In this document: positions 1,533 through 12,110 of the stretch, piece after piece
Numbering within the stretch: the first letter of the stretch is position 1
Layout: every line of letters starts with the position of its first letter
Assembly: GCA_015655225.1 (NCBI GenBank)
Contig: JAATFK010000036.1
Location: 1-12,485 of the forward strand
Direction: 5' to 3'
Source: Solirubrobacterales bacterium
Lineage (GTDB): Bacteria; Actinomycetota; Thermoleophilia; Solirubrobacterales; Solirubrobacteraceae
Length of the DNA stretch: 12,485 nucleotides
Made by a program: the position numbers and the translations under genes
Notes under the pieces: model-generated
Told to the model about the DNA's origin: nothing
What the model saw: the letters and a program-made list of their open reading frames with translations, nothing else
The model's database searches: none

Positions 1533-2897
1533 TCAGTCGATGCCGAGGACGATGCCGGGCGTCAGCAGGCCGACCGGGAGCATCGCCTGGCGATCGGAGA
1601 ACGGGAGGACGTCCTCGTGGAGGTCGATGCCGAGCAGGTCGCGCATGTCGCTGCGGCGGCGCTCGACGCGCGCCCACATAGCCGGATGGCGCGACCGCAG
1701 CTCGGCGCGCAGCTCCTCGTCAGCGAGCGCGAGGCCGTCCTCGACGTTGGCGGCGTCGCCGGGGCGCGGACCGACGGGGATGATGTCGCACTGCAGCGCG
1801 GTGCCACTCGGCAGGGCGAATGACTGGCCTGCGACGAACGGGCTGTCGAGCCACTCGTCGAGGTGGACGAGGTGGCCGGGGTTCAGCAGCGGGCGCAGCC
1901 CCGCCTCGGCGAGCGAGGCGTGAGCGGTGGCCGCGATCGCGCCGGCGTCGGCGCCGACGCGCACAGACTCGTACCAGGTGGCGACCGCGCCGAAGTAGGG
2001 CGCCAGGAAGCGCTCGGCGAACGCCTCGGTCTCGGCCTCGTCGGCGTGGAGCAGCCGGCCGGCGCGGGAGGTGAGCCCGCCCCAGAGCCCGACGGCGGTC
2101 GAGAAGCGGTCGCCGTGCGCGAGCGGCCGGTCGGTCGGGCTGCGCATGCCGGCGACGGTGTCGGCGCCGCTGGTGCACATGACGTGGCACGCGAGCGCCA
2201 GCCCGTCGAGTCTCATCGCGGCGGCGATCTCCAGTTCGGTGGAGCCCGGACGCACCGCCTCCAGCGCGCGCCACACGTGCTGGGAGGCGCGCGTGGCGCG
2301 ATGCTCGTTGAGCGCCAGCTGGTCGGCCTCGCTGTCGGCTCGCAGCCCGTGCAGTCCCATCAGCACCGCGGTGGCGTCGACCAGCCGGCCGCAGTGGCTG
2401 GCGATCTGCGCGTGCATGAACTGAGGGACGGCGAAGGCCGCCTCGCCGCCGAGCCGGTCGCCGGCCGGGATCGGCTTCCAGCCGACGAGCCCGGCGACGG
2501 AGTCGACGCCGACCCCCGCCTGCGCGAGGGCGTCGGTCAGCAGCGGGCGCTCGGTGCGCGCCTGGGCGGGCAGGCTGAGCGACTGGCACAGCACCGCCGT
2601 GGTCGGGATCGCCGTGAACGGGACGAGCGAGACCGACTCGTTGCCGGTGATCACGACCGGGTCGCCGGCCGGGAGGATCGCGATCAGCGCCTCCTCGAAG
2701 CGGGGGTCGAAGCCGGTCAGGAAGGCGCCGTTGGCGTAGTGCTCGCGGTCGGCGTAGACGAGCAGCGCGTCGAGGCCGAGGTCGTCCATCCGCGCGCGCA
2801 CCGCGCGCAGGCGTCGCTCGTAGAGCGCCGCGGGCAGCAACGGCTCGGGCTCGAGCGCCGAGAGCGCCGGCAGCTCGATCGCGCGCGGCCCGATCAT
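1533..2897 (-). CDS. M24-family (creatinase/aminopeptidase P fold) protein, 454 aa, metal ligands apparently missing
   Basis: Last gene of the minus-strand operon. The N-terminal part (about residues 20-180) has the look of a creatinase N-terminal domain: ERRLRAVRARMDDLGLDALLVY, then YANGAFLTGFDPRFEEALI. The C-terminal pita-bread part spans about 185-454, with SGADTV...SPTDRPLAHGD near 243-263. Active M24 enzymes keep two Asp, one His and two Glu as metal ligands. Here the segments GDRFSTAVGLWGG (262-274) and LTSRAGRLL (275-283) show no Asp at the expected ligand positions, while His341, His345, Glu348 and Glu386 are near the places of the later ligands. It is therefore either a metal-free enzyme (as creatinase is) or a pseudoenzyme. 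The start at 2897 was preferred because it gives an ATGA overlap with the upstream gene and GGGG seven bases before; ATG 2903 would add two residues. Specific substrate unknown. Confidence 0.8.
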   Translation of the reverse strand: MIGPRAIELPALSALEPEPLLPAALYERRLRAVRARMDDLGLDALLVYADREHYANGAFLTGFDPRFEEALIAILPAGDPVVITGNESVSLVPFTAIPTTAVLCQSLSLPAQARTERPLLTDALAQAGVGVDSVAGLVGWKPIPAGDRLGGEAAFAVPQFMHAQIASHCGRLVDATAVLMGLHGLRADSEADQLALNEHRATRASQHVWRALEAVRPGSTELEIAAAMRLDGLALACHVMCTSGADTVAGMRSPTDRPLAHGDRFSTAVGLWGGLTSRAGRLLHADEAETEAFAERFLAPYFGAVATWYESVRVGADAGAIAATAHASLAEAGLRPLLNPGHLVHLDEWLDSPFVAGQSFALPSGTALQCDIIPVGPRPGDAANVEDGLALADEELRAELRSRHPAMWARVERRRSDMRDLLGIDLHEDVLPFSDRQAMLPVGLLTPGIVLGID

Positions 2898-3673
2898 GCG
2901 CATGCCCCGGACGTGAGCCAGCGAACGACGCCGTCCCAGATGGGCGCGTAGCCGTCCCACGCGACGAAGTCCGGGGGCGCCCAGTGGGGCGCGAGGTCGG
3001 AGGTGAACGCGGCGACGCGGCCGGCCCCCGATCTTCCCACGGCCAGCAGCGGGTCGGTGCCGATGCGCACCAGCTCGGTCGAGCCGGCGCCGATCTCGAC
3101 GCGGTTGTAGCCGAGCAGCGGGGGCCATGCGGTGGGGACGCCCGCGAGCGCCGGATGCTCGCCGAGGAGGACCTCGGCCTCGAGGCCCTCAGGCGTCTCG
3201 ACGCGATCGTCGACGTCGTCGACCTGGACCGGGAGCACGCTGCCGATCGGGCTGCGCCCCCAGCGCGCGCGCCCATCGATGCCGCTGAAGGAGAGGTAGC
3301 CGCCGACCATCAGCAGGCCCCCGCCGGCGCGCACGAACTCGGCGAGCGCAGTCAGCCGGTTGGGCGCGATCCGCGACTCGTTGAAGGTCTCCGGTGTCAG
3401 CAGGAAGCTGTTGGCCCCGATGTCGCTGAGGACGACGACGTCGGCGACCGCCGCGAGCGCCTCGGCCGAGGCCGGGAACGCCGTCGCGACCTCGTGCGCA
3501 CGGACGTAGGCGACGTCGTGCCCGGTCTCGCGCAGTGCCGCGAGGAACGCGCCGGCGCCCTCGACGTACTCGGTCGTCTGAAATGCGTCGAAGCCCTTCA
3601 GGTGGGTGCTGTGCGTGACCCACGACTCGCCCACGAGCAGCACCCGGGCTCCCGCCTCTCGGCCGGCGCTCAT
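2894..3673 (-). CDS. Putative glutamine amidotransferase-like protein (GATase1-like family), 259 aa
   Basis: Cytoplasmic protein with a flavodoxin-like class I amidotransferase fold. VLLVGESWVT (11-20) is followed by HLKGFDAF, then DVVVLSDIGANSFLL (78-92), GGGLLMVGGYLSFSGI (117-132), PPLLGYNRV (184-192) and a C-terminal GAGRVAAFTSDLAPHW (216-231) with a Trp-rich end. This pattern matches the family annotated as putative glutamine amidotransferase (PF07090 type, from memory). The elbow where amidotransferases carry the catalytic Cys reads GGYLSFSG and has none, so glutaminase activity is doubtful; it may bind or cleave another ligand. The ATG is in an ATGA overlap with the M20 gene upstream, and the stop overlaps the M24-like gene downstream, so all three should be made together. 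A longer upstream frame exists but lies inside the preceding gene. Confidence 0.8.
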   Translation of the reverse strand: MSAGREAGARVLLVGESWVTHSTHLKGFDAFQTTEYVEGAGAFLAALRETGHDVAYVRAHEVATAFPASAEALAAVADVVVLSDIGANSFLLTPETFNESRIAPNRLTALAEFVRAGGGLLMVGGYLSFSGIDGRARWGRSPIGSVLPVQVDDVDDRVETPEGLEAEVLLGEHPALAGVPTAWPPLLGYNRVEIGAGSTELVRIGTDPLLAVGRSGAGRVAAFTSDLAPHWAPPDFVAWDGYAPIWDGVVRWLTSGACA

Positions 3674-5019
3674 GAGGCCACGCCGCACCACGCGGCGATC
3701 GTCAGCGCGTAGGCACGGGTCGCCGCGGCGAGCGCGGCCTCGGGCAGCGCCTCGTCGACCTGGTGGGCGATCGCCGGGTCGCCCGGCCCGAAGTTCACCG
3801 TCGGGATCCCGGCGTTGACGAGCAGACCCATGTCGGTGTGGAACGGGCTGCCCCGCACGACGCCGGGGGAGCCGGACGCCGCGACGCATGCCGCCGTCGT
3901 CGTGACGAGAGGGTGGTCGGCGGGGATCTCAGCGCAGTCGGCGTCGACCGGCCAGTCGATCGTGATGCCCTCGGCGCGCAGCCAGGCATGGCGTCGCGCC
4001 CATTCGCGGATCGCGGCTTCGATCTGGTCCTTGACGTTGCCGCCGAGCTGGTGGTCGTCGCGCTCGGCGGGCAGGTACTGGACGTCGAGCGTGAGCTCGA
4101 ACCCGTCGGCCCAGGCGCTCGGCAACGCGCCGGCGCGGATCACGGAGGGGATCGCCTGGCACGCGACCGGCTGGAGTGGATGGCGCTTGCGCGGGTCGGT
4201 GCGCCAGCGGGCGTTGAGCTCGTCGATCGCGGTCAGTAGGTCGCGTCCGAGCGCGATCGCGTCGACCGCTCCCCCGTGGTCCCAGGCGGGTTGGGGAATC
4301 TCGATGTGTCCCGCCCGCCCGGGAATGCGGATCGTGCACCAGAGCACGCCGCGGCAGAGCGGCGCGATCTCGAGGCCGGTCGGCTCGGGGATGATCGCTC
4401 CGTCGGCCCGGTAGCCGCGGTCCACGAGCGAGAGGGCGCCCATCCCGCCGGTCTCCTCGTCGACGACCGAGGCAAAGAGCACGTCGCCCGCGAGCGTCAC
4501 GCCGAGCTGGTCGAGCAGCTCGAGGGCGGCGAGCGCGGCTGCCATCCCGCCCTTCATGTCGACCGCGCCGCGGCCGTAGAGGAGGCCGTCGCGGCGGACC
4601 GCCGCGAACGGGTCGACGCTCCAGCCGGGGCCGAGGCCGACGGTGTCGGCGTGGCCGAGCAGCAGCAGCGATCGGCCTCCGCCGGCGCCGCGCAGGCGCC
4701 CGACCAGGTTCGGTCGTCCGGTCAGGTCGCGGTCGGCGTGGTAGCCGGGGTAGCCGTCGTATCGGGCGAGGTCGGCGGCGTCGAACTCCCAGCGGTCGAG
4801 CTCGGCGCCGAGCGCCTGCAGGCGCGGCGTCAGCGCGTCCTGCATCCGTGCTTCCCGCTGGTCGTCGGGGTCACCGCCAAACCAAGGATTCACGCTGCGC
4901 GCCCGGACGAGGTCGGCGAGCAGTGAGAGGGGCGCCTCCGGATCGGCATCGACGGCGGCCAGGACCCGCTCGACGAGCTCGGCGTCCAGCGGGACGGTGG
5001 GCGACTTCAGCGGTTCCAT
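3670..5019 (-). CDS. M20-family metallohydrolase, ArgE/DapE type, 449 aa
   Basis: Predicted two-zinc amidohydrolase of the ArgE/DapE/aminoacylase group, hydrolysing an N-acyl amino acid or similar amide in the cytoplasm. All expected residues are visible: His123 and Asp125 in LLGHADTVG, bridging Asp154 in YGRGAVDMKGG, catalytic Glu188 and ligand Glu189 in VVDEETGG, Glu212 in IIPEPTGL and the final His419 in GDPAIAHQVDE. The lid/dimerisation domain is inserted at about 222-345 and contains RAGHIEIPQ. The length is normal for the family. ATG 5019 was chosen because AAGG stands seven bases upstream and the family N-terminus fits; the frame is open farther upstream but overlaps the preceding gene, whose last 13 bases overlap this start. 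Neighbours suggest a role in catabolism rather than arginine or lysine synthesis. The substrate is unknown. Confidence 0.9.
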   Translation of the reverse strand: MEPLKSPTVPLDAELVERVLAAVDADPEAPLSLLADLVRARSVNPWFGGDPDDQREARMQDALTPRLQALGAELDRWEFDAADLARYDGYPGYHADRDLTGRPNLVGRLRGAGGGRSLLLLGHADTVGLGPGWSVDPFAAVRRDGLLYGRGAVDMKGGMAAALAALELLDQLGVTLAGDVLFASVVDEETGGMGALSLVDRGYRADGAIIPEPTGLEIAPLCRGVLWCTIRIPGRAGHIEIPQPAWDHGGAVDAIALGRDLLTAIDELNARWRTDPRKRHPLQPVACQAIPSVIRAGALPSAWADGFELTLDVQYLPAERDDHQLGGNVKDQIEAAIREWARRHAWLRAEGITIDWPVDADCAEIPADHPLVTTTAACVAASGSPGVVRGSPFHTDMGLLVNAGIPTVNFGPGDPAIAHQVDEALPEAALAAATRAYALTIAAWCGVAS

Positions 5020-5774
5020 GGCTCGGCCTTCGCTTCCTCGGGTTGCTCGTACCACTGCACGCGGTCGCCGACGCGGGCGCGCAGCTTCCACCGGCGGCTC
5101 TTCGGAACGGCGTCCAGCGCTGAGAGCAGGGCATCGACCTGCTCTGCGGCCGCGAACGTGCCGATGCCGCGCAGGTCGAGCGACCCGGCGTGATCGCGGG
5201 TTCGGCGCAGTACCTCGGTGGTGGTGCGCCACAGTCCCCAGTCGGAGCTGCACAGCTCGGTCACGCGCTCGACCGAGATCGCCTCCGGATCGTCTTCCCC
5301 GAGGGGATGGTCAATCAGCAAGGTGATGATGTCGCCGTAGTCCTTGTCCGCCGTCTCGAACACCTGCAGCTTGGTCATCAGCAGGTCGGCCAGCGGCAGC
5401 GTCGGCCATGACAGCGCGAGTCGGTCGCCGAGCTCGAGCTCGTGGCACATCGCGAGGCGGTCGATCAGGACGTCCGCCTGGCGGCCGTGCGCCGGATCCC
5501 AGTAGATGAGGCGCTGACGGCCGTGCAGGAGGTTGACCTCCTCGTCCGGCACGTAACCGGCCGCCTCGAAGAGGCGCTCGATGCTCGGGCGCTCAGAGCT
5601 GCGCCCGGCCAGGTCGACGTCGCCGTAGGCCCTGCGCAGCGGCGGCGCCTGCGCGGAGGGGCACCGGAGCGAGACGGCCACGCCGCCCATCACCCGGAGC
5701 GTGAGCCCCGCCTCGCGTGAGGCCGTCACGATCCGCAGCGCCTCGCGGGCCGGGTCGGTGTCGGTCACGCCCAT
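5007..5774 (-). CDS. Nucleotidyltransferase-fold protein, 255 aa, first gene of the hydrolase operon
   Basis: The N-terminal half has the hallmarks of the DNA polymerase beta-like/AbiEii-type nucleotidyltransferase superfamily. Helix 1 leads into VMGGVAVSL (28-36, the Gly-Gly motif), then RRAYGDVDLAG (48-57) with Asp52 and Asp54 as the Asp-x-Asp metal pair, and a possible third acid at Asp101 in QADVLID. KLQVFETADKDYGDI (135-149) resembles the Lys-x-x-Asp helix of AbiEii-like proteins. The C-terminal third is charged and unassigned. The start at 5774 is supported by AGGAA five bases upstream (5780-5784). No toxin or antitoxin partner and no antibiotic-resistance context is present. Instead it leads an operon of hydrolases and sits directly behind a LacI-type operator. 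It might modify a metabolite, nucleic acid or protein; the sequence does not tell. Confidence 0.75.
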   Translation of the reverse strand: MGVTDTDPAREALRIVTASREAGLTLRVMGGVAVSLRCPSAQAPPLRRAYGDVDLAGRSSERPSIERLFEAAGYVPDEEVNLLHGRQRLIYWDPAHGRQADVLIDRLAMCHELELGDRLALSWPTLPLADLLMTKLQVFETADKDYGDIITLLIDHPLGEDDPEAISVERVTELCSSDWGLWRTTTEVLRRTRDHAGSLDLRGIGTFAAAEQVDALLSALDAVPKSRRWKLRARVGDRVQWYEQPEEAKAEPWNR

Positions 5775-5792
5775 CGGCGTTCCTGACTGAGT

Positions 5793-5810
5793 TGCAAAAA
5801 CATTTTTGCA
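5793..5810. promoter_or_regulatory. Operator O1, LacI-type, upstream of the hydrolase operon
   Basis: TGCAAAAACATTTTTGCA is an 18-bp inverted repeat with perfect 8-base arms and a CA centre. LacI/PurR-family operators are even palindromes, typically with a central CG; here one centre base differs. Its left half repeats the core found twice in front of the permease gene. The centre is about 27 bases upstream of the nucleotidyltransferase start, where a bound repressor would block transcription. It stands out as AT-rich in a GC-rich region. Confidence 0.75.
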
Positions 5811-5966
5811 TCGTTTCGCAGATGAGCCCCGCTTGCATCTGGCCGGGCGGCTAAACCGTCGCCGGGTCCATTGGCCATCCGGCAGATCGAGCGCCGATGC
5901 GACGCCGCGACGGCGACGGACGCCGCGCGGGTGGCACGGCGGCCGGCTCGCCGCGCGCATTTGGGG

Positions 5967-5987
5967 CGCCAGGCCGCCGCCTGGGCG
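5967..5987 (-). terminator. Hairpin downstream of the LacI-family gene
   Basis: CCAGGC (5969-5974) pairs with GCCTGG (5979-5984) around a four-base loop, and the stem can be extended with CGC/GCG if one G is bulged. It starts about 23 bases past the repressor stop. There is no T-tract, so its strength is uncertain, and the flanks are so GC-rich that chance pairing is possible. Confidence 0.25.
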
Positions 5988-6009
5988 GTTCGGGCGGCGA
6001 GGGTGTCTC

Positions 6010-7089
6010 TCAGCCGGCTTCGGCGGCCAGCTCGCCGAGCTGCTCGGCGAGCCCGACGGCGGGGAGGTTCCGACCGCGGCGACTCGATCGGCGCGTCGAG
6101 CCGCGCGAGATGATCCCGGTCGCGACGTACTCGTGCTCGGGAGCCGGTCGCTCCTCGAGCAGCGCGACGAGCAGCTCGACCGCGCGCGTCCCGACGTCGG
6201 TCGGGTTCAGGGTCAGGACCGTGAGCGAGGGGCTCGACATCCGCGCCGCGACGCTGTCGGTGCACCCGGCGACGAGCAGGTCGCGCGGCACCGAGAGGCC
6301 GCTCGCGTCGGCCGCCAGCAGGACGCCGAGCGCGAGGCGGTCGTAGCTCGTGTAGATGGCGTCGGGTGGGTCGGCCCGCTCCAGCAGTTGCAGCGCGGCG
6401 TCGAAGCCGGCGTGCTCGCTCAGGTCCCAGGCGGCCTCCGCGATCATCGGTGCCATCGCGGTGTCGGCGCAGAAGGCGGCGTAGGCCTCGCGCAGGTCGA
6501 GCCCGACCGAGCGGATCGGGGCACTATCGATCAGCGCGATGCGACGCGCACCGCGGCGGGCGAGGTGGTCGAGCATGGAGCGGGTGCCGGCGACGATGTC
6601 GTTGTCGACCCAGTAGGTCTCGATCCCGTCGGTCGGGCGGCCGGTGGTGACGAGCGGCATGTCGGCCTCGCGCAGCGCCGTGAGGACGGGGTCGCCGCGG
6701 ACCGGGTCGACGACGATCGCCCCGTCGAGCGCCCAGCGGCGCCACGGCTCCGACTGGCTGTTGGCGGCCGTCGCGAGCACGAGCGCGTAGCCGTGCTCCA
6801 GCGCCGCGCCGGTCGCCGCGCCGAGCAGCTCGGTGAAGTAGTTGTTGCCCGACAGGGTCGAGGGAAGACCCTCGGCCTCGGACATGAACAGGCCGATCAG
6901 GCCGCTGCGGCCGCCGCCCAGGTTGCGGGCCGCGATGCGCGGCGTGTAGCCCAGGTCGGCTGCCACGGCGCGGACGCGGGTCCGCGTCTCGAGCGGCAGG
7001 CGCCCCTTTCCGTTGAGCGCGTGCGAGACGGTCGTGACCGACACCCCCGCCGCCTCGGCGACCTCCCGGATCCCGACTGGCTTCGCCAT
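6010..7089 (-). CDS. LacI-family transcriptional repressor, 359 aa
   Basis: The N-terminal LacI HTH is canonical: GIREVAEAAGVSVTTVSHALNG (6-27), then a recognition and hinge region ending near YTPRIAARNLGGG. The periplasmic-binding-protein-like sensor domain follows, starting at SGLIGLFM and including YTSYDRLALGVLLAADASGLSVPRDLLVAG and TVLTLNPTDVGTRAVELL. Length and domain order are normal. The protein should bind an 18-bp palindrome with a CG-like centre and release it when it binds a small ligand, probably the imported compound or a breakdown product. Three matching sites lie on both sides of this gene. ATG 7089 was chosen because the HTH begins right after it; upstream ATGs would overlap the promoter. 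No ribosome binding site is present and the likely transcription start is next to the ATG, so the mRNA may be leaderless. Confidence 0.92.
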   Translation of the reverse strand: MAKPVGIREVAEAAGVSVTTVSHALNGKGRLPLETRTRVRAVAADLGYTPRIAARNLGGGRSGLIGLFMSEAEGLPSTLSGNNYFTELLGAATGAALEHGYALVLATAANSQSEPWRRWALDGAIVVDPVRGDPVLTALREADMPLVTTGRPTDGIETYWVDNDIVAGTRSMLDHLARRGARRIALIDSAPIRSVGLDLREAYAAFCADTAMAPMIAEAAWDLSEHAGFDAALQLLERADPPDAIYTSYDRLALGVLLAADASGLSVPRDLLVAGCTDSVAARMSSPSLTVLTLNPTDVGTRAVELLVALLEERPAPEHEYVATGIISRGSTRRSSRRGRNLPAVGLAEQLGELAAEAG

Positions 7090-7096
7090 CGCGCCG

Positions 7097-7125
7097 AGTT
7101 TAGACGAAGTCATTGACATCAGCAA
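7097..7125 (-). promoter_or_regulatory. Predicted promoter of the LacI-family gene
   Basis: On the minus strand TTGCTG (7125-7120) and TAAACT (7102-7097) are separated by 17 bases, a fair sigma-70-type pair. The start point would fall around 7090, directly at the ATG at 7089. The -35 element overlaps operator O2, so the repressor would control its own synthesis. Confidence 0.5.
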
Positions 7126-7141
7126 AAACGTTCTCTACCTT
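7113..7141 (+). promoter_or_regulatory. Predicted promoter of the permease operon
   Basis: A perfect TTGACA (7113-7118) is followed after exactly 17 bases by TACCTT (7136-7141), a good housekeeping-sigma promoter for a high-GC actinobacterium. Operator O2 occupies the spacer and reaches into the -10, and O3 lies just past the expected start point near 7148. The 5' leader would be about 70 bases. Confidence 0.7.
7121..7138. promoter_or_regulatory. Operator O2, LacI-type half-conserved site
   Basis: AGCAAAAACGTTCTCTAC has a strong left half (GCAAAAACG with the central CG at 7129-7130) and a poor right half. It covers the spacer of the permease promoter and the -35 of the divergent repressor promoter, so one bound dimer could silence both directions. 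Confidence 0.65.
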
Positions 7142-7153
7142 GCCGCTTCCACA

Positions 7154-7171
7154 AGCAAAAACGTATTGCCT
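7154..7171. promoter_or_regulatory. Operator O3, LacI-type site
   Basis: AGCAAAAACGTATTGCCT repeats the first 11 bases of O2 exactly and has a better right half: GCAA and TTGC arms around the central CG at 7162-7163. Its centre is 33 bp from that of O2, close to three helical turns, so two dimers could sit on the same DNA face. It lies just downstream of the expected transcription start of the permease operon. Confidence 0.7.
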
Positions 7172-7206
7172 AATTCCTCGCGAACTCCCGGCGCGCGGGA
7201 TCAGCC

Positions 7207-7214
7207 AAAGGAGA
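7207..7214 (+). promoter_or_regulatory. Ribosome binding site of the permease gene
   Basis: AAAGGAGA lies five bases before ATG 7220. It decides this start over the in-frame ATG far upstream at 7013, which lies inside the repressor gene. Confidence 0.8.
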
Positions 7215-7219
7215 CGCTG

Positions 7220-8845
7220 ATGGCGGCCAAGACGCCCACCGAGGCGGAGACGGGCAGCGAGACGGCGAGCCGGCGCGTGTTTGCCCGGGATGCGACGGGA
7301 CTGCGGAAGGACGCGGGCCCGCTGGACATCTTCATCTACAACATCAACAACCAGAACGTCGCGCTCGGCGTGGTGTTCCTGTTCGGCGTGCTGGCTGCGT
7401 ATCCGGGGGGCAACTTCGCGCTCAGCGTGATCGGCGCGACGCTGCTCGTGATCCCGCTGTACATGGTCTACTCGCGCCTGTCGGCGGACATGCCGCGCTC
7501 CGGTGGGGATTACGTGTGGGTGAGCCGGATCTTCGGCACCTCGCTCGGTCCGTTCGTCGGCTTCACGCTGGCGGCGACGCTGATCATGACGGCGTTCACC
7601 GCGATCGGCGCGCCGATGGCGTTCATGACGCAGTACGGGATCGCTCCGATGATGCGCGAGCTGGGCGACGCGACGGGCTGGTCGTGGTGCGCCAGCTTCG
7701 GGACGTGGGCCTACGGGGAGACGGGGACCCTCGTCATCGGCACGGTCTTCCTCGCGGCGTTCACCGGCGTCATGATCGGCGGCGTCCGCCTCTACATGCG
7801 GATCCAGAAGTACGCCTTCCTGCTCGCGACGATCGGGCTCGTGCTCGGCATCGTGGTGATCTACGCGACCACGCGCTCGGGCCTGCACCACGACTTCGAC
7901 GGCTACGTCCAGCGGCTCGGCGGCAGACCGAACGCGAGCGCGCTGGCGGTCAGAGGGGGCACCGCGACGGCGAACAAGGGCTTCTCGTTCCACTCGACCT
8001 TCTTCGCGATGCTGTGGACGCTCTACATGGTGCTCTTCGGCGCCAGCTCCTGCTACATCGGCAGCGAGGTCCGCCAGCCCGCGCGGACGCAGCGGATCGG
8101 CATGTTCGGCTCGCTCGCGTTCACCGCGATCGGCATCCTGCTGCTCGTCGTCGGCCTGCTGCACCTCGGCGGCGAGTCGTTCTTCATGGGCCTGAGCGGC
8201 GCCGACCTCGGTCTCGCGTTCCCGCTCACCTACAACGAGCTCGTCTACGCGATGCTCGGGCACAGCTGGGTGTGGGCGCTGCTGATCGGCGGAACGTTCG
8301 TCTTCTGGACCTACGTCTGGATGCCGATCAACTTCTTCACCGCCACCCGCCTGCTGCTCGCGCTCTCGCTCGACGGCTACCTCCCGCGCCGCGTCTCGAC
8401 CGTGAATCGCAGATTCGGCACGCCGCACGTCGCGATCCTGATCTGCGCGCTGTTCGGCTGGCTCTCGCTGTTCCTGTTCGTCCACGGCACGATCTCGACG
8501 GTCACGCTCACGTTCGCGGCGATCGTGATGTTCGTCGTGAGCGGCGTCGGCGCGGCGCTCTACCCGTTCACGCTGCGCCGCGTCTGGCAGAGCTCGAAGC
8601 CGACGACGGTCCTGGGCGTCCCGGTGATCAGCATCTGGGGGACGCTCCAGGCGGCCTGCTCGATCGTGATCCTCTACATCTTCTGGAACGACCCGGGCGG
8701 AGGCATCCACCTCAGCCACACCAACGAGGTGCTGAACGTCGGCGCTCCGCTGCTGGCCCTCGTCCTCGCGGTCGTCGTGATCGTCGGCCGCCGCCTCGGC
8801 GGCACCGACCTGCGTCTCGCATCCGCGGAGATCCCGCCCGACTGA
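7220..8845 (+). CDS. APC-superfamily amino acid/amine permease, 541 aa
   Basis: Integral membrane secondary transporter of the amino acid-polyamine-organocation group, likely importing the compound degraded by the downstream enzymes. The first 35 residues are a charged cytoplasmic tail. Hydrophobic segments begin near 48-66 (VALGVVFLFGVLAAYPGG), then 67-85. MPRSGGDYVWVSR (91-103) is the signature loop of this superfamily. Further long hydrophobic stretches follow through the protein, consistent with about 12 helices; one is the pair of segments around FTAIGILLLVVGLLHLGG and VWALLIGGTFVFWTYVWMPINFF. The start is fixed by AAAGGAGA. It is the first gene of the divergent operon, has its own promoter with two operators, and is separated from the next gene by a 97-base gap holding a strong hairpin. 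Substrate class (amino acid, amine or guanidino compound) is inferred from context only. Confidence 0.9.
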   Translation: MAAKTPTEAETGSETASRRVFARDATGLRKDAGPLDIFIYNINNQNVALGVVFLFGVLAAYPGGNFALSVIGATLLVIPLYMVYSRLSADMPRSGGDYVWVSRIFGTSLGPFVGFTLAATLIMTAFTAIGAPMAFMTQYGIAPMMRELGDATGWSWCASFGTWAYGETGTLVIGTVFLAAFTGVMIGGVRLYMRIQKYAFLLATIGLVLGIVVIYATTRSGLHHDFDGYVQRLGGRPNASALAVRGGTATANKGFSFHSTFFAMLWTLYMVLFGASSCYIGSEVRQPARTQRIGMFGSLAFTAIGILLLVVGLLHLGGESFFMGLSGADLGLAFPLTYNELVYAMLGHSWVWALLIGGTFVFWTYVWMPINFFTATRLLLALSLDGYLPRRVSTVNRRFGTPHVAILICALFGWLSLFLFVHGTISTVTLTFAAIVMFVVSGVGAALYPFTLRRVWQSSKPTTVLGVPVISIWGTLQAACSIVILYIFWNDPGGGIHLSHTNEVLNVGAPLLALVLAVVVIVGRRLGGTDLRLASAEIPPD

Positions 8846-8850
8846 GCCGG

Positions 8851-8908
8851 CCCGCTCGATCGGCCGGCCGACGCCCGCGTCCCGCGCGGGCGTCGGCCGG
8901 CGAGCGGG
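8851..8908 (+). terminator. Long GC-rich hairpin between permease and ureohydrolase genes
   Basis: A 17-bp perfect stem pairs 8863-8879 with 8885-8901 around a 5-base loop. An outer 7-bp stem (8851-8857 with 8902-8908) extends it, with a few unpaired bases on the left. No T-tract follows. It begins five bases after the permease stop. It could be a partial terminator, or a 3' stabiliser that lets the membrane gene and the enzyme genes be expressed at different levels; no second promoter is obvious. Confidence 0.6.
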
Positions 8909-8930
8909 ACTCGCCTCATCTTCCTCACAC

Positions 8931-8936
8931 GAAAGG
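8931..8936 (+). promoter_or_regulatory. Ribosome binding site of the ureohydrolase gene
   Basis: GAAAGG lies six bases before ATG 8943 and fixes that start just after the intergenic hairpin. Confidence 0.7.
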
Positions 8937-8942
8937 CCTCAT

Positions 8943-9911
8943 ATGCAAGAGCTCGGAGTCAGCGGCGTGCTGCACAGCGGCCCCGCCACCTTCTTCGGCC
9001 TGCAGCACGAACCGAACCCCACGTCCGCGATCCGCGCCGCCATCGTCGGCGCGCCCTGGGACGAGGGCAACGGCGGCCGCAACGGCGCCAACTACGGGCC
9101 GCGCGGCGTGCGCGACGCGTCGAGCTGGTTCGCCTCCTACGACCTCGCCAGCCGCCGCGACGTCTGGGAGGCGCTCACCGTCGTCGACGGCGGCGACATC
9201 CCCTGCATCCCGTCCGACGCGGCGCGCACGATGGACTACTTCGCCGACCACGTCGCCGGGCTGCTCGAGGGCGGCGTCATGCCGGTCGTCGTCGGCGGCA
9301 ACCACAGCATCACGAACGGCACCGCCCGCGGCGCCGCGCGCGCCTGCGACGGCCGGATGGGCTACCTCAGCATCGACACGCACCTCGACACCACCGAGGG
9401 CTGGGCCGGCGCGCCGCTGGCCTCGGGCTGCCCGACCTACCGCGCCGCGGACCTGCCGAACGTCGACCCCGCCAACGTCGTCGTCTACGGGGTCCACGGC
9501 TGGCTCAACCCGCGCTCGCACGTCGAGACGGCCGAGGCGCTCGGGATTCGCTGGTACACGCGCGACGAGATCCGCGCGCGCGGGCTCGCCGAGACGCTCG
9601 CGGAGGCGATCGCGCGTGCGAGCGACGGGGTGGCGGGCCTCTACGTGACCTTCGACATGGACTGCATGGACAGCTCCTCGGCGCCCGGGACCGGGACGCC
9701 GGAGGCGGGCGGGTTCCTCGCCGACGAGGCGATCGAGATCGCTCGCGCGATCGGCCGCGCCCGTCCGTTCGCGTTCGACGTCGTCGAGATCGCGCCGATC
9801 TACGAGCAGTCCGGCGTCACGCAGCGACTGGCATGCACGATCCTGATGGAGATGTTCGCGGGCATGGCCGACGCCGACGCCGAGGAGACGGGATCCGATG
9901 GGGCTGCGTGA
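8943..9911 (+). CDS. Ureohydrolase (arginase/agmatinase/guanidino-acid hydrolase family), 322 aa
   Basis: Two-metal (usually manganese, sometimes nickel) hydrolase that removes urea from a guanidino compound, or formamide in formiminoglutamase-type members. All six expected metal ligands are visible: His121 in GGNHS (118-122), Asp145, His147 and Asp149 in DTHLD, and Asp238 and Asp240 in FDMDCMDSSSAPGTGTPE. The family Glu is present in VVEIAPIY (Glu282). The first motif reads GGNHS where agmatinases and arginases usually have GGDHS, and the third motif has Asp-Ser-Ser where Asp-Pro is usual, so the closest subfamily may be unusual. Length is normal. The last 14 bases overlap the metallophosphoesterase gene. 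With no arginine or polyamine genes nearby, a less common guanidino substrate (for example guanidinobutyrate, guanidinopropionate or guanidine) is as likely as agmatine. Confidence 0.9.
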   Translation: MQELGVSGVLHSGPATFFGLQHEPNPTSAIRAAIVGAPWDEGNGGRNGANYGPRGVRDASSWFASYDLASRRDVWEALTVVDGGDIPCIPSDAARTMDYFADHVAGLLEGGVMPVVVGGNHSITNGTARGAARACDGRMGYLSIDTHLDTTEGWAGAPLASGCPTYRAADLPNVDPANVVVYGVHGWLNPRSHVETAEALGIRWYTRDEIRARGLAETLAEAIARASDGVAGLYVTFDMDCMDSSSAPGTGTPEAGGFLADEAIEIARAIGRARPFAFDVVEIAPIYEQSGVTQRLACTILMEMFAGMADADAEETGSDGAA

Positions 9912-10872
9912 TCGGCTCGCGGCGCGCCGCGAGCGCGACCTGCGGATCTACTACACGGGCGACATCCACGGGTCGGAGCTGTGCTTCCGCAAGTTCCTCA
10001 AGGCGCCCGACTTCTACGACGCCGACGTCGCGGTGATCGGCGGCGACATCACCGGCAAGGCGATGGTCCCCGTGATCGCGCAGGGCGCGGGCTTCGCCGC
10101 CCGCGTTCAGGGCGAGGAGCGGGTCGTCGCCGCCGCGGACGTCGAGGAGCTCGAACGGGACATCCGGTTCGCCGGCTTCTACACGTACCGCTGCGACCAG
10201 CGAGAGCTGGAACGCCTGGAGGCGGATCACGACCACCGTGAGCGCACGTTCACCGCGCTCATGGTCGACCAGGTCGCGCGCTGGCGCGCACTCGCGGAGG
10301 AGCGCTTCGCCGGTCGCCCCTATCCCGTCTTCATCATGCCGGGCAACGACGACGAATTCGCGATCGACGCAGCGCTCGACGGCGAGACGGTCGTCAACCC
10401 CGACCTGCGGGTGGTCACGGTCGGCCCGGTGCAGATGCTGTCGTGCTCGTGGACCGGGCCGACGCCCTGGAGAAGCCCGCGCGAGGAGCCCGAAGACGAT
10501 CTCAGCCGGCGCCTGGAGGGAATCGCGAGCGCGCTCGACCCCGACATGCCGGCGATCTTCAACCTCCACTGCCCGCCGTACGACTCGACGCTCGACATGG
10601 CCCCGCTGCTGACCGAGGACCTGCGCGTCGTCTCCGACGGCGGTCAGGCGCGGATGGTGCCGGTCGGGTCCCACGCCGTCCGCGAGTTCATCGAGCGCCG
10701 CCAGCCGCTCGTCAGCCTGCACGGCCACATCCACGAGTCGCGGGCGATCGCGAACCTCGGGGCGACGATCTGCGTCAACCCGGGCAGCCAGTACTCCGAG
10801 GGCCGGATCGACGGTGCGCTCGTCGATCTCCGCGACGGCAGAGTCGTGCGAACGCAGCTCGTGTCGGGATGA
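9898..10872 (+). CDS. Calcineurin-like metallophosphoesterase, 324 aa
   Basis: Predicted two-metal phosphoesterase. The motifs appear in order: GDIHG (21-25, Asp22 and His24), GGDITG (48-53, Asp50), GND (149-151, in place of the usual Gly-Asn-His), His224 in NLHCPP and GHIH (276-279). A family-typical NPGSQYSEG follows at 294-302. Between motifs 2 and 3 there is a charged, probably helical insert of about 80 residues (70-140), which may form a cap over the active site. No signal peptide is seen, so it acts in the cytoplasm. It starts inside the end of the ureohydrolase gene (14-base overlap; GAGGAGA nine bases upstream) and ends in an ATGA with the next gene. Such tight coupling to C-N hydrolases is odd for a phosphatase; it might act on a phosphorylated intermediate or a nucleotide, which cannot be decided from sequence. 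Confidence 0.87.
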   Translation: MGLRDRLAARRERDLRIYYTGDIHGSELCFRKFLKAPDFYDADVAVIGGDITGKAMVPVIAQGAGFAARVQGEERVVAAADVEELERDIRFAGFYTYRCDQRELERLEADHDHRERTFTALMVDQVARWRALAEERFAGRPYPVFIMPGNDDEFAIDAALDGETVVNPDLRVVTVGPVQMLSCSWTGPTPWRSPREEPEDDLSRRLEGIASALDPDMPAIFNLHCPPYDSTLDMAPLLTEDLRVVSDGGQARMVPVGSHAVREFIERRQPLVSLHGHIHESRAIANLGATICVNPGSQYSEGRIDGALVDLRDGRVVRTQLVSG

Positions 10873-12110
10873 GCGCGATCGACCCCGCCCGCGTGATCGC
10901 GGAGCTGCGCGAGCTGCACGCCCTGACCGGCGGCCCGGCCGGAGCGCAGCGCCTCGCCTGGTCGTCGCAGGTCGCTCGCGCACGCGGGTGGCTGGACGAG
11001 CGGCTGCGTGAGCTGCCGGTCGAGATCTCCTACGACGCCGCCGGCAACCACTGGGCGACGTTGCCGGGGAGGCGGAAAGCCTCTCTGGTGCTCGGCAGCC
11101 ATCTCGACTCGGTCGCCGGCGGCGGCTGGCTCGACGGCTCGCTCGGCGTGCTCGCCGGCCTCGAGGTGATGCGCACGCTCTGCGACGCGTGGGAAGGCCG
11201 GCCCCCGATCACCCTGCGTCTGGTCGACTGGGCCGACGAGGAGGGCGCGCGCTTCGGACGCAGCCTGCTCGGCTCCAGCGCCGCGGCCGGCACGCTCGAC
11301 CTCGAGGAGATCCGCGGTCGCGTCGACGGCGACGGCGTCGCGATCGAGGCCGCGATGGCGGCGAGCGGCGTCGACCTCGAACGGCTGCTCGACTCCGGTC
11401 GCGAGCTGGCCGACATCGCCGCCTACCTGGAACTGCACATCGAGCAGGGCCCCGTGCTCGAGCGAGCCGGCGCTCCCGTCGCGGTCGTCGACGGCACCTG
11501 CGGCGCCGTGCGCTACCGCGTGCGCTTCGTCGGCGAGGCATGCCATCCTGCCGCCACGCCGCTCGACGCGCGTCGAGACGCGCTGCTTGCCGGCGCCAGG
11601 CTGATCGCCGGCGCCCACGAGATCGCCGAGCGGGCCAGCGCGCTCACGAGCATCGGCTCGTGCCAGGTCGAGCCGGGCCACATCACGATCATCGCCGGCG
11701 CCTGCACGATCGTCATCGAGCAGAACCACGTCGATCCCGCTGTGCTGCGTGCGGTGGAGGCGGAGACAGTGGGGCTGGCGCACGAGCTCGCGGCCGGCGC
11801 GGGACTGGAGGTCGAGGTGGACGACCTCTGGCGCATCGAACCGCTCGACTTCGACGCCGACCTGGTGGCGCGCGCCGACGCCGCGGTCCGCTCGCTTCAG
11901 GCGAAGCCATTCCACATGCCCAGCGGGCCGCTGCACGATGCCGGCGAGATGGTGCGCGCCGGGATCCCCAGCGCGATGCTGTTCGTCCAGAGCAGAGGGG
12001 GAATCTCGCACAACCCGCGCGAAGACACCGACGACGAGCATCTGGAGCTCGCCGTACGGGCGCTCGGCGCCCTCGCGGAGGACGTCCTCGGCGCCCTCGC
12101 GACGCGCTGA
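10869..12110 (+). CDS. M20-type Zn amidohydrolase, allantoate amidohydrolase/N-carbamoyl-amino-acid hydrolase-like, 413 aa
   Basis: Member of the AllC/HyuC/beta-ureidopropionase group, cytoplasmic dimers that hydrolyse ureido or carbamoyl amino compounds. Metal residues are intact: His78 in GSHLDSV, Asp89 in GGGWLDGSLGV, catalytic Glu124 and ligand Glu125 in DWADEEGARFG, His190 in LELHIEQGPVLE and His381 in GGISHNPRED. His226 in CHPAATPLDARRDAL matches the dimer-interface histidine. By contrast, the strand pair that normally carries an Asn and a carboxylate-binding Arg (xNVxPGxxxxxxDxRHxD) reads ITIIAGACTIVIEQNHVD (272-289), with Thr and Asn instead. The substrate may therefore lack the usual carboxylate. 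The ATG lies in an ATGA overlap, so this is the last gene of the permease operon. The name allantoate amidohydrolase should not be transferred. Confidence 0.88.
   Translation: MSAIDPARVIAELRELHALTGGPAGAQRLAWSSQVARARGWLDERLRELPVEISYDAAGNHWATLPGRRKASLVLGSHLDSVAGGGWLDGSLGVLAGLEVMRTLCDAWEGRPPITLRLVDWADEEGARFGRSLLGSSAAAGTLDLEEIRGRVDGDGVAIEAAMAASGVDLERLLDSGRELADIAAYLELHIEQGPVLERAGAPVAVVDGTCGAVRYRVRFVGEACHPAATPLDARRDALLAGARLIAGAHEIAERASALTSIGSCQVEPGHITIIAGACTIVIEQNHVDPAVLRAVEAETVGLAHELAAGAGLEVEVDDLWRIEPLDFDADLVARADAAVRSLQAKPFHMPSGPLHDAGEMVRAGIPSAMLFVQSRGGISHNPREDTDDEHLELAVRALGALAEDVLGALATR

Follow-up and report, generated by a model that had tools for sequence, protein, structure and literature searches.

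The stretch analyzed here (the window) is 12,485 bp of contig JAATFK010000036.1 from a Solirubrobacterales bacterium, in an assembly of 3.9 Mb that is 77% complete and divided into 729 contigs. It carries two divergent operons around a single LacI-family repressor gene (Table 1), and the main subject is three of its genes, encoding an amino-acid-permease-family transporter (APC), a calcineurin-like metallophosphoesterase (MPE), and a nucleotidyltransferase (NT). The plus operon runs APC, a ureohydrolase (UreoH), MPE, and a carbamoylase-group M20 hydrolase (M20C), the last three overlapping. The minus operon runs NT, an M20 deacylase (M20E), a PF07090 protein (GAT), and an M24-fold protein (M24), with adjoining genes overlapping by a few bases. 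Start codons were chosen from the sequence. An initial annotation of this DNA had named these genes and the two operons, with outer coordinates 1533..12110, and open-frame and Pfam/NCBIfam scans found them present and right.

Table 1. Genes and operator-like sites of the window
Feature	Position	Strand	Basis
M24: divergent M24-fold protein	1533..2903	-	PF00557
GAT: PF07090 'GATase1_like' protein, relative of Salmonella STM1381	2894..3673	-	Pfam
M20E: M20 ArgE/DapE-type deacylase	3670..5019	-	TIGR01910 above cut-off
NT: nucleotidyltransferase, ANT(2'')/LnuA/MenT fold, first minus-operon gene	5007..5774	-	Alignment, structure model, fold matches
Operator-like near-palindrome GCAAAAACATTTTTGC, ~20 bp before NT start codon	5794..5809	-	15/16 matches to 16-mer
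LacI-family repressor	6010..7089	-	PF00356/PF13377
Operator-like site GCAAAAACGTTCTCTA before APC	7122..7137	+	16-mer match
Operator-like site GCAAAAACGTATTGCC before APC, 33 bp from site at 7122	7155..7170	+	16-mer match
APC: amino-acid-permease-family transporter, discrete subfamily, tail EIPPD	7220..8845	+	PF13520, subfamily search
UreoH: ureohydrolase, agmatinase/proclavaminate amidinohydrolase/guanidinobutyrase group	8943..9911	+	PF00491, PDB relatives
MPE: calcineurin-like metallophosphoesterase, metal motifs kept	9898..10872	+	
M20C: M20 hydrolase, N-carbamoyl-amino acid/allantoate amidohydrolase (hydantoinase/carbamoylase) group	10869..12110	+	TIGR01879, PDB relatives

APC, MPE, and NT recur as a unit, defined as the three genes lying within 10 kb, as they do in the window. 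Among 146 genomes of the family, MPE is found in 28, NT in 27, and the APC subfamily in 26; all three occur together in 25 and 117 have none. These genomes hold 43 MPE, 38 NT, and 41 APC places. With search profiles that were built from MPE-centered loci and favor linked members, APC lies within 10 kb of 38 of the 43 MPE places and MPE within 10 kb of 38 of the 41 APC places, and the corresponding values for NT are 34/43 MPE places with NT and 34/38 NT places with MPE. The genes sit close together, with median gaps in the family genomes of 45 bp between MPE and APC and 44 bp between MPE and NT. APC is present at 37 of 39 MPE-centered family loci and NT at 32, and the two loci where APC is not seen lie on contigs (4.8 and 3.1 kb) whose ends fall close to the unit. 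Translations that contained an internal stop or fell short of a length limit were excluded, and L135, a GAT locus, was left out of the module counts.

The association extends beyond the family. MPE was found in 49 of 396 genomes of the phylum, and 20 loci chosen from MPE-positive genomes have APC in every case and NT in 17. In a one-way comparison, in which APC-positive genomes were checked for MPE, the APC subfamily was present in 19 of 159 phylum genomes, all 19 of them MPE-positive, and 29 of 33 APC places had MPE within 10 kb. A set of 72,556 plasmid records gave three MPE matches, two of them near full length and both beside APC. A plasmid of the archaeon Halobellus limi carries MPE–NT–APC beside an aldehyde dehydrogenase and an iron-containing alcohol dehydrogenase, and its NT gene is the sole NT match in the plasmid records; a Thermomicrobium roseum plasmid carries APC–MPE–nitrilase. 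No description of a joint role for the three proteins was found in the open-access PubMed Central (PMC) literature, which leaves subscription journals mostly uncovered and is weak evidence that such a role is unpublished.

The genes found beside the unit, its cargo, differ between loci. By Pfam, one type of cargo, of the agmatinase/nitrilase kind, has a ureohydrolase with a CN-hydrolase, an M24 protein, and a histone-deacetylase-like amidohydrolase. At L198 the cargo is a sulfatase, an iron-containing alcohol dehydrogenase, an aldehyde dehydrogenase, and a betaine-type binding protein, and at L204 it is a GMC oxidoreductase with a DAO–GCV_T fusion; judged by sequence, both look like genes for the use of choline or betaine. 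Other neighbors include a serine dehydratase, glutamine-synthetase-like proteins with AllG or formamidase, an FGGY kinase with BtpA, and M20E. The regulators near the unit also vary (LacI, DeoR, GntR, PucR-like, and IclR), and 48 complete triads show five same-strand gene arrangements as well as mixed-strand ones.

The permease of the unit belongs to a discrete subfamily. In the family genomes its matches are set off by a clean gap, with none between E values of 1e-60 and about 1e-99. All 58 permeases examined end in the C-terminal tail [EQ][ILV]Pxx, which in the window APC reads EIPPD. Permeases of this kind could be recognized simply by the tail in combination with MPE.

The active-site residues of both partner proteins are intact. 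NT, numbered here by its 253-residue translation, has the Pol-beta-type G motif with DxD and the third Asp, and this catalytic triad (D50/D52/D99) is present in 48/48 triads. His109 is also invariant in the 48 triads, which would fit a common acceptor, and the C-terminal part of the protein is conserved (W227, R230, G234, and W239). NT had no Pfam match at E≤0.001, with a weak match to PF14907 at 0.0048; its structure model has a predicted local distance difference test score (pLDDT) of 93.3, and the nearest solved folds are MenT1, ANT(2''), and LnuA, at 15–17% identity. In MPE, residues D22, H24, D50, N150, D151, H224, H277, and H279 are invariant in the 48 triads and place it among the calcineurin-like phosphoesterases, whose motifs we take to be DxH, GD, GND, H, and GHxH. 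The family has invariant residues of its own in the same triads (K32, K54, W129, and R195), and the fold resembles aq_1956 and TT1561 as well as phosphodiesterases, MPPED2 and Rv0805 among them. The search thresholds are passed by at least 2,179 NT-like and at least 3,162 MPE-like proteins, and the NT source names shown are mostly 'hypothetical protein'. Solirubrobacteraceae, Gaiellales, Thermoleophilaceae, and Thermomicrobium are among the few relatives of NT and MPE that carry names, which points to a probable host within Thermoleophilia.

In the window the unit is split between the operons, and operator-like sites link its halves. Direct repeats AGCAAAAACGT, two copies 33 bp apart, lie between LacI and APC. 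Exactly three positions in the window (5794, 7122, and 7155) match the 16-mer GCAAAAACGTTTTTGC at 12/16 or better, whereas 40 first-order Markov copies of the window averaged 0.025 such sites; the 16-mer had been picked after the sites had been seen. At thirteen loci, including the window, the LacI protein exceeds a score of 450 against a local profile; 12 of them carry a site next to LacI, and 11 carry paired operator-like sites 33–38 bp apart, with none at L096. The window LacI is 48–54% identical to the LacI of ten full-length related module loci. Because the operator-like sites are common to both operons and paired sites occur at related LacI loci, it is very likely, on this sequence evidence, that both operons, including the NT gene separated from MPE, answer to the same repressor, to which the sites would bind. 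Coregulation had been proposed earlier without evidence, and the three shared sites now lend it support. No riboswitch was found, as the window gave no Rfam match at gathering scores, and no sigma-70-type promoters were found in 5700–9000.

The island reads as a repressor-controlled gene set for the uptake and breakdown of a nitrogen compound, with the APC–MPE–NT unit at its heart. In the mechanism we propose, LacI would leave its operators when the imported nitrogen compound is present, switching the island on. Import would fall to the permease and degradation to UreoH together with the two M20 enzymes; the likeliest compound is an amine bearing a guanidino, ureido, or acyl substituent. NT would add a nucleotide to a target that every module shares (the most plausible being the permease itself or a protein docked at its tail), and MPE would take it off, allowing uptake to be adjusted after synthesis. 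NT and MPE are cast as an opposing pair because a phosphodiesterase-like enzyme is the natural counterpart of a nucleotidyltransferase. The permease, or some factor shared with it, is favored over the cargo as their point of action because the subfamily nearly always has its own MPE, mostly its own NT, and a fixed tail, whatever is imported. The reading of MPE and NT as enzymes dedicated to the permease, probably running a reversible nucleotidylation cycle that controls uptake, is given a probability of roughly 0.4, with the chemistry and the target both inferred. More tentative still is the proposal that this is a general, cargo-independent transporter control across bacteria and archaea, in which NT and MPE reversibly nucleotidylate the APC permease or a tail-held partner and so gate the entry of amines and further nitrogen compounds. 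If true, nucleotidylation would be added to the bacterial and archaeal controls of amine and amino-acid uptake, and the large NT-like and MPE-like families, now without a role, would gain a testable function.

Several observations weigh against this proposal. The stretches fetched for 7 of the 39 family and 3 of the 20 phylum loci show no NT, some of them being contig ends; the absences at L087, L116, L122, and L124 look real, and the Thermomicrobium roseum plasmid has no NT of the window NT's family. Permeases without MPE occur at 3 of 41 family and 4 of 33 phylum places, partly as fragments or at contig edges. The nearest folds to NT act on small molecules or are toxins. The permease ends have no conserved Ser, Thr, or Tyr; the conserved ones, Y98 and S102, belong to a motif of an inner loop. 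Only a small control is available for the tail, namely eight weak tail-less profile matches, only three of which, near-identical and haloarchaeal, are annotated as APC permeases. The distance matrices of the 48 triads correlate (APC–MPE 0.87, MPE–NT 0.71, and APC–NT 0.62, with 0/2000 permutations as high), which speaks in favor of the proposal, but the correlation partly reflects species descent. Nearest neighbors agree less well, in 26/48 triads for APC–MPE, 18/48 for MPE–NT, and 20/48 for APC–NT, and therefore parts have also been exchanged between modules. The distances and gene orders for L195–L214 use the single best match per gene.

The nucleotide could instead be placed on the imported compound, with NT trapping, masking, or activating it and MPE freeing it for the catabolic enzymes. 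ANT(2'') and LnuA, which stand among the nearest solved folds to NT, nucleotidylate drugs, MPE resembles phosphodiesterases, and every module brings an MPE of its own and usually an NT copy as well. However, the cargo genes imply very different compounds, yet in nine same-genome module pairs NT is 36–51% identical (MPE 37–48%), against 21–26% for the permeases. Agmatine-type compounds, moreover, have no hydroxyl acceptor. Modification of the substrate is the strongest rival account, somewhat less probable than control of the permease. A third option is a local signal, a small nucleotide made by NT and degraded by MPE that binds the permease. The invariant residues that surround the NT active site and the phosphodiesterase-like fold of MPE are in keeping with this, and a precedent comes from KUP-family K+ transporters, which PMC10710835 describes as deactivated by cyclic-di-AMP. 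Among the 50 NT fold matches listed, however, there is no cyclic-dinucleotide synthase, and such a signal seems unlikely.

Two further readings carry the least weight. That this is an ordinary catabolic island with MPE and NT as passengers fits the fact that each protein is in, or folded like, a broad known superfamily; it is strained by the co-occurrence counts and by the recurrence of the unit in many families and an archaeon, where its cargo, gene order, and regulators differ, and it is improbable. A toxin–antitoxin or defense unit lying beside permeases by chance would be in line with MenT1 among the nearest NT folds and with a weak PADLOC match of MPE (PDC-S10, 26.8 bits). Against this stand the lack of an antitoxin or HEPN gene among the ten scanned window proteins, the scanned neighbors at related loci (permease, MPE, and catabolic genes), and the position of NT behind the operator-like site of a metabolic repressor. 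NT also has no PADLOC match at E≤0.01, and neither NT nor MPE had any match in 50,697 phage records, on which ground a phage origin was also rejected. This last explanation is very improbable indeed.

Reversible nucleotidylation of the permease or its partner would have its closest parallel in PII (GlnK)–AmtB with uridylylation, where, as PMC10710835 sets out, a transporter is controlled through a nucleotide group put on and taken off a protein. In that case the partners are an ammonium channel and PII, whereas here an APC permease has NT and MPE for neighbors, and the window has no PII gene. NT differs from the small-molecule nucleotidyltransferases ANT(2'')-Ia and LnuA and from the toxin MenT1 not only in its low identity but in its conserved C-terminal part and in having permease and MPE partners. 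MPE, in turn, is set apart from aq_1956, TT1561, MPPED2, and Rv0805 by its family-specific residues and its place beside APC.

In the genomes searched, the full set of nine genes turned up nowhere but in the window. Sixty-one MPE-centered loci were read, and at the 59 tested for the window M24, GAT, and M20C (39 family and 20 phylum) the sole match was a 31% M20C at L123; other M24-family proteins, 22–26% identical, occur at some MPE loci. At 44 GAT-anchored loci besides the window (39 from a contig scan that reached close relatives only, and 5 of under 4 kb each from further related genomes), no UreoH, MPE, NT, APC, M24, or M20C was found at E≤1e-8, and only LacI and M20E-like genes at 28–31% were present. 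UreoH searches returned the window only, in 396 phylum genomes (E≤1e-90) and in 399 class genomes (E≤1e-70). A single conserved nine-gene pathway, as the initial annotation had proposed, is thus rejected within the sampled genomes, where a subset, APC–MPE–NT, recurs as a unit. MPE and NT had also been taken for steps of that pathway; they look rather like parts of a permease unit with changing catabolic neighbors.

The catabolic genes of the window fit the proposed role on a guanidino, ureido, or acyl compound, given the ureohydrolase and the carbamoylase-type M20, and such an amine is the likeliest imported substrate. UreoH matches PF00491 at 236.5 bits and contains GGNHS, DTHLD, and DMDCMD, corresponding to the Mn motifs GGxH, DxHxD, and DxDxxD that we take to be the ureohydrolase signature; it falls below the curated agmatinase cut-off (TIGR01230, 148.8 against 174.3 bits). 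It is 33–40% identical to the best members in family genomes, and relatives at 57–71% are present in public protein sets. M20C is above the cut-off for the hydantoinase/carbamoylase M20 family (TIGR01879, 294.9 against 204 bits) and far under that for the allantoate deiminase AllC (TIGR03176, 201.6 against 597.75 bits), and its nearest solved structure is N-carbamoyl-L-amino acid hydrolase. M20E passes the ArgE/DapE deacylase cut-off (TIGR01910) at 224.4 against 217.6 bits, and relatives at 38–41% lie beside APC–MPE at six loci (L094, L116, L119, L122, L124, and L127).

The M24 protein matches PF00557 at 25.7 bits, just above the 23-bit cut-off, and retains Asp265, His344, and Glu388; Gly276 replaces the second metal Asp and Ile374 the fourth-ligand Glu. 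Six M24 relatives keep all five metal ligands, presumably the set D, D, H, E, E, and with two of them lost the window protein falls outside the M24 metallopeptidases. In a sequence-only comparison with creatinase, Creatinase_N scored 21.6 bits, just under the cut-off of 22, and no PDB chain matched at E≤0.01. The protein described as amidotransferase-like does match the PF07090 fold but has no core Cys. Because its single Cys is the penultimate residue, it appears from its sequence to be amidotransferase-like in fold only, without the nucleophile of the class I glutamine amidotransferases. The pathways for agmatine, creatinine, allantoin, and hydantoin share single enzymes of the same superfamilies with the island, which differs in the missed agmatinase and AllC equivalog cut-offs, the two lost M24 ligands, and the absence of any allantoinase, hydantoinase, or creatininase Pfam match among the ten window proteins. 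Sequence relationships make the island a mosaic, because the nearest relatives of its parts differ (APC is closest to the APC of the LacI-type loci L081, L088, L082, L195, and L086, and MPE and NT to other modules) and UreoH is so distant from its best counterparts in the family.

Some smaller observations concern the wider families. Two MPE copies flank one permease at L204, L208, and L209, and the last two loci share several of the L204 gene clusters. MPE is kept in genomes of 1.0–1.4 Mb (G203, G343, and G547, of family f31), which suggests a role worth keeping in small genomes; G203 also has APC and NT (L213). On the Thermomicrobium roseum plasmid a separate nucleotidyltransferase-domain/HEPN pair (L216, 13320–14055) follows 2.4 kb after MPE. 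A haloarchaeal locus (L248, 3764–7402) has a pair of APC permease and universal stress protein and then a longer metallophosphoesterase, and that permease is without the tail. In several genera, PF07090 proteins close to STM1381 of Salmonella are again neighbors of LacI-type regulators; this family, too, is without a known role. Within the window, an upstream open frame at 12–785 gave nothing in scans of Pfam, NCBIfam, and PADLOC at the chosen thresholds. Between APC and UreoH, at 8843–8942, lies a very stable hairpin (-64.5 kcal/mol, z -5.7) without a T-run, which may separate expression of the permease from that of the rest of its operon.

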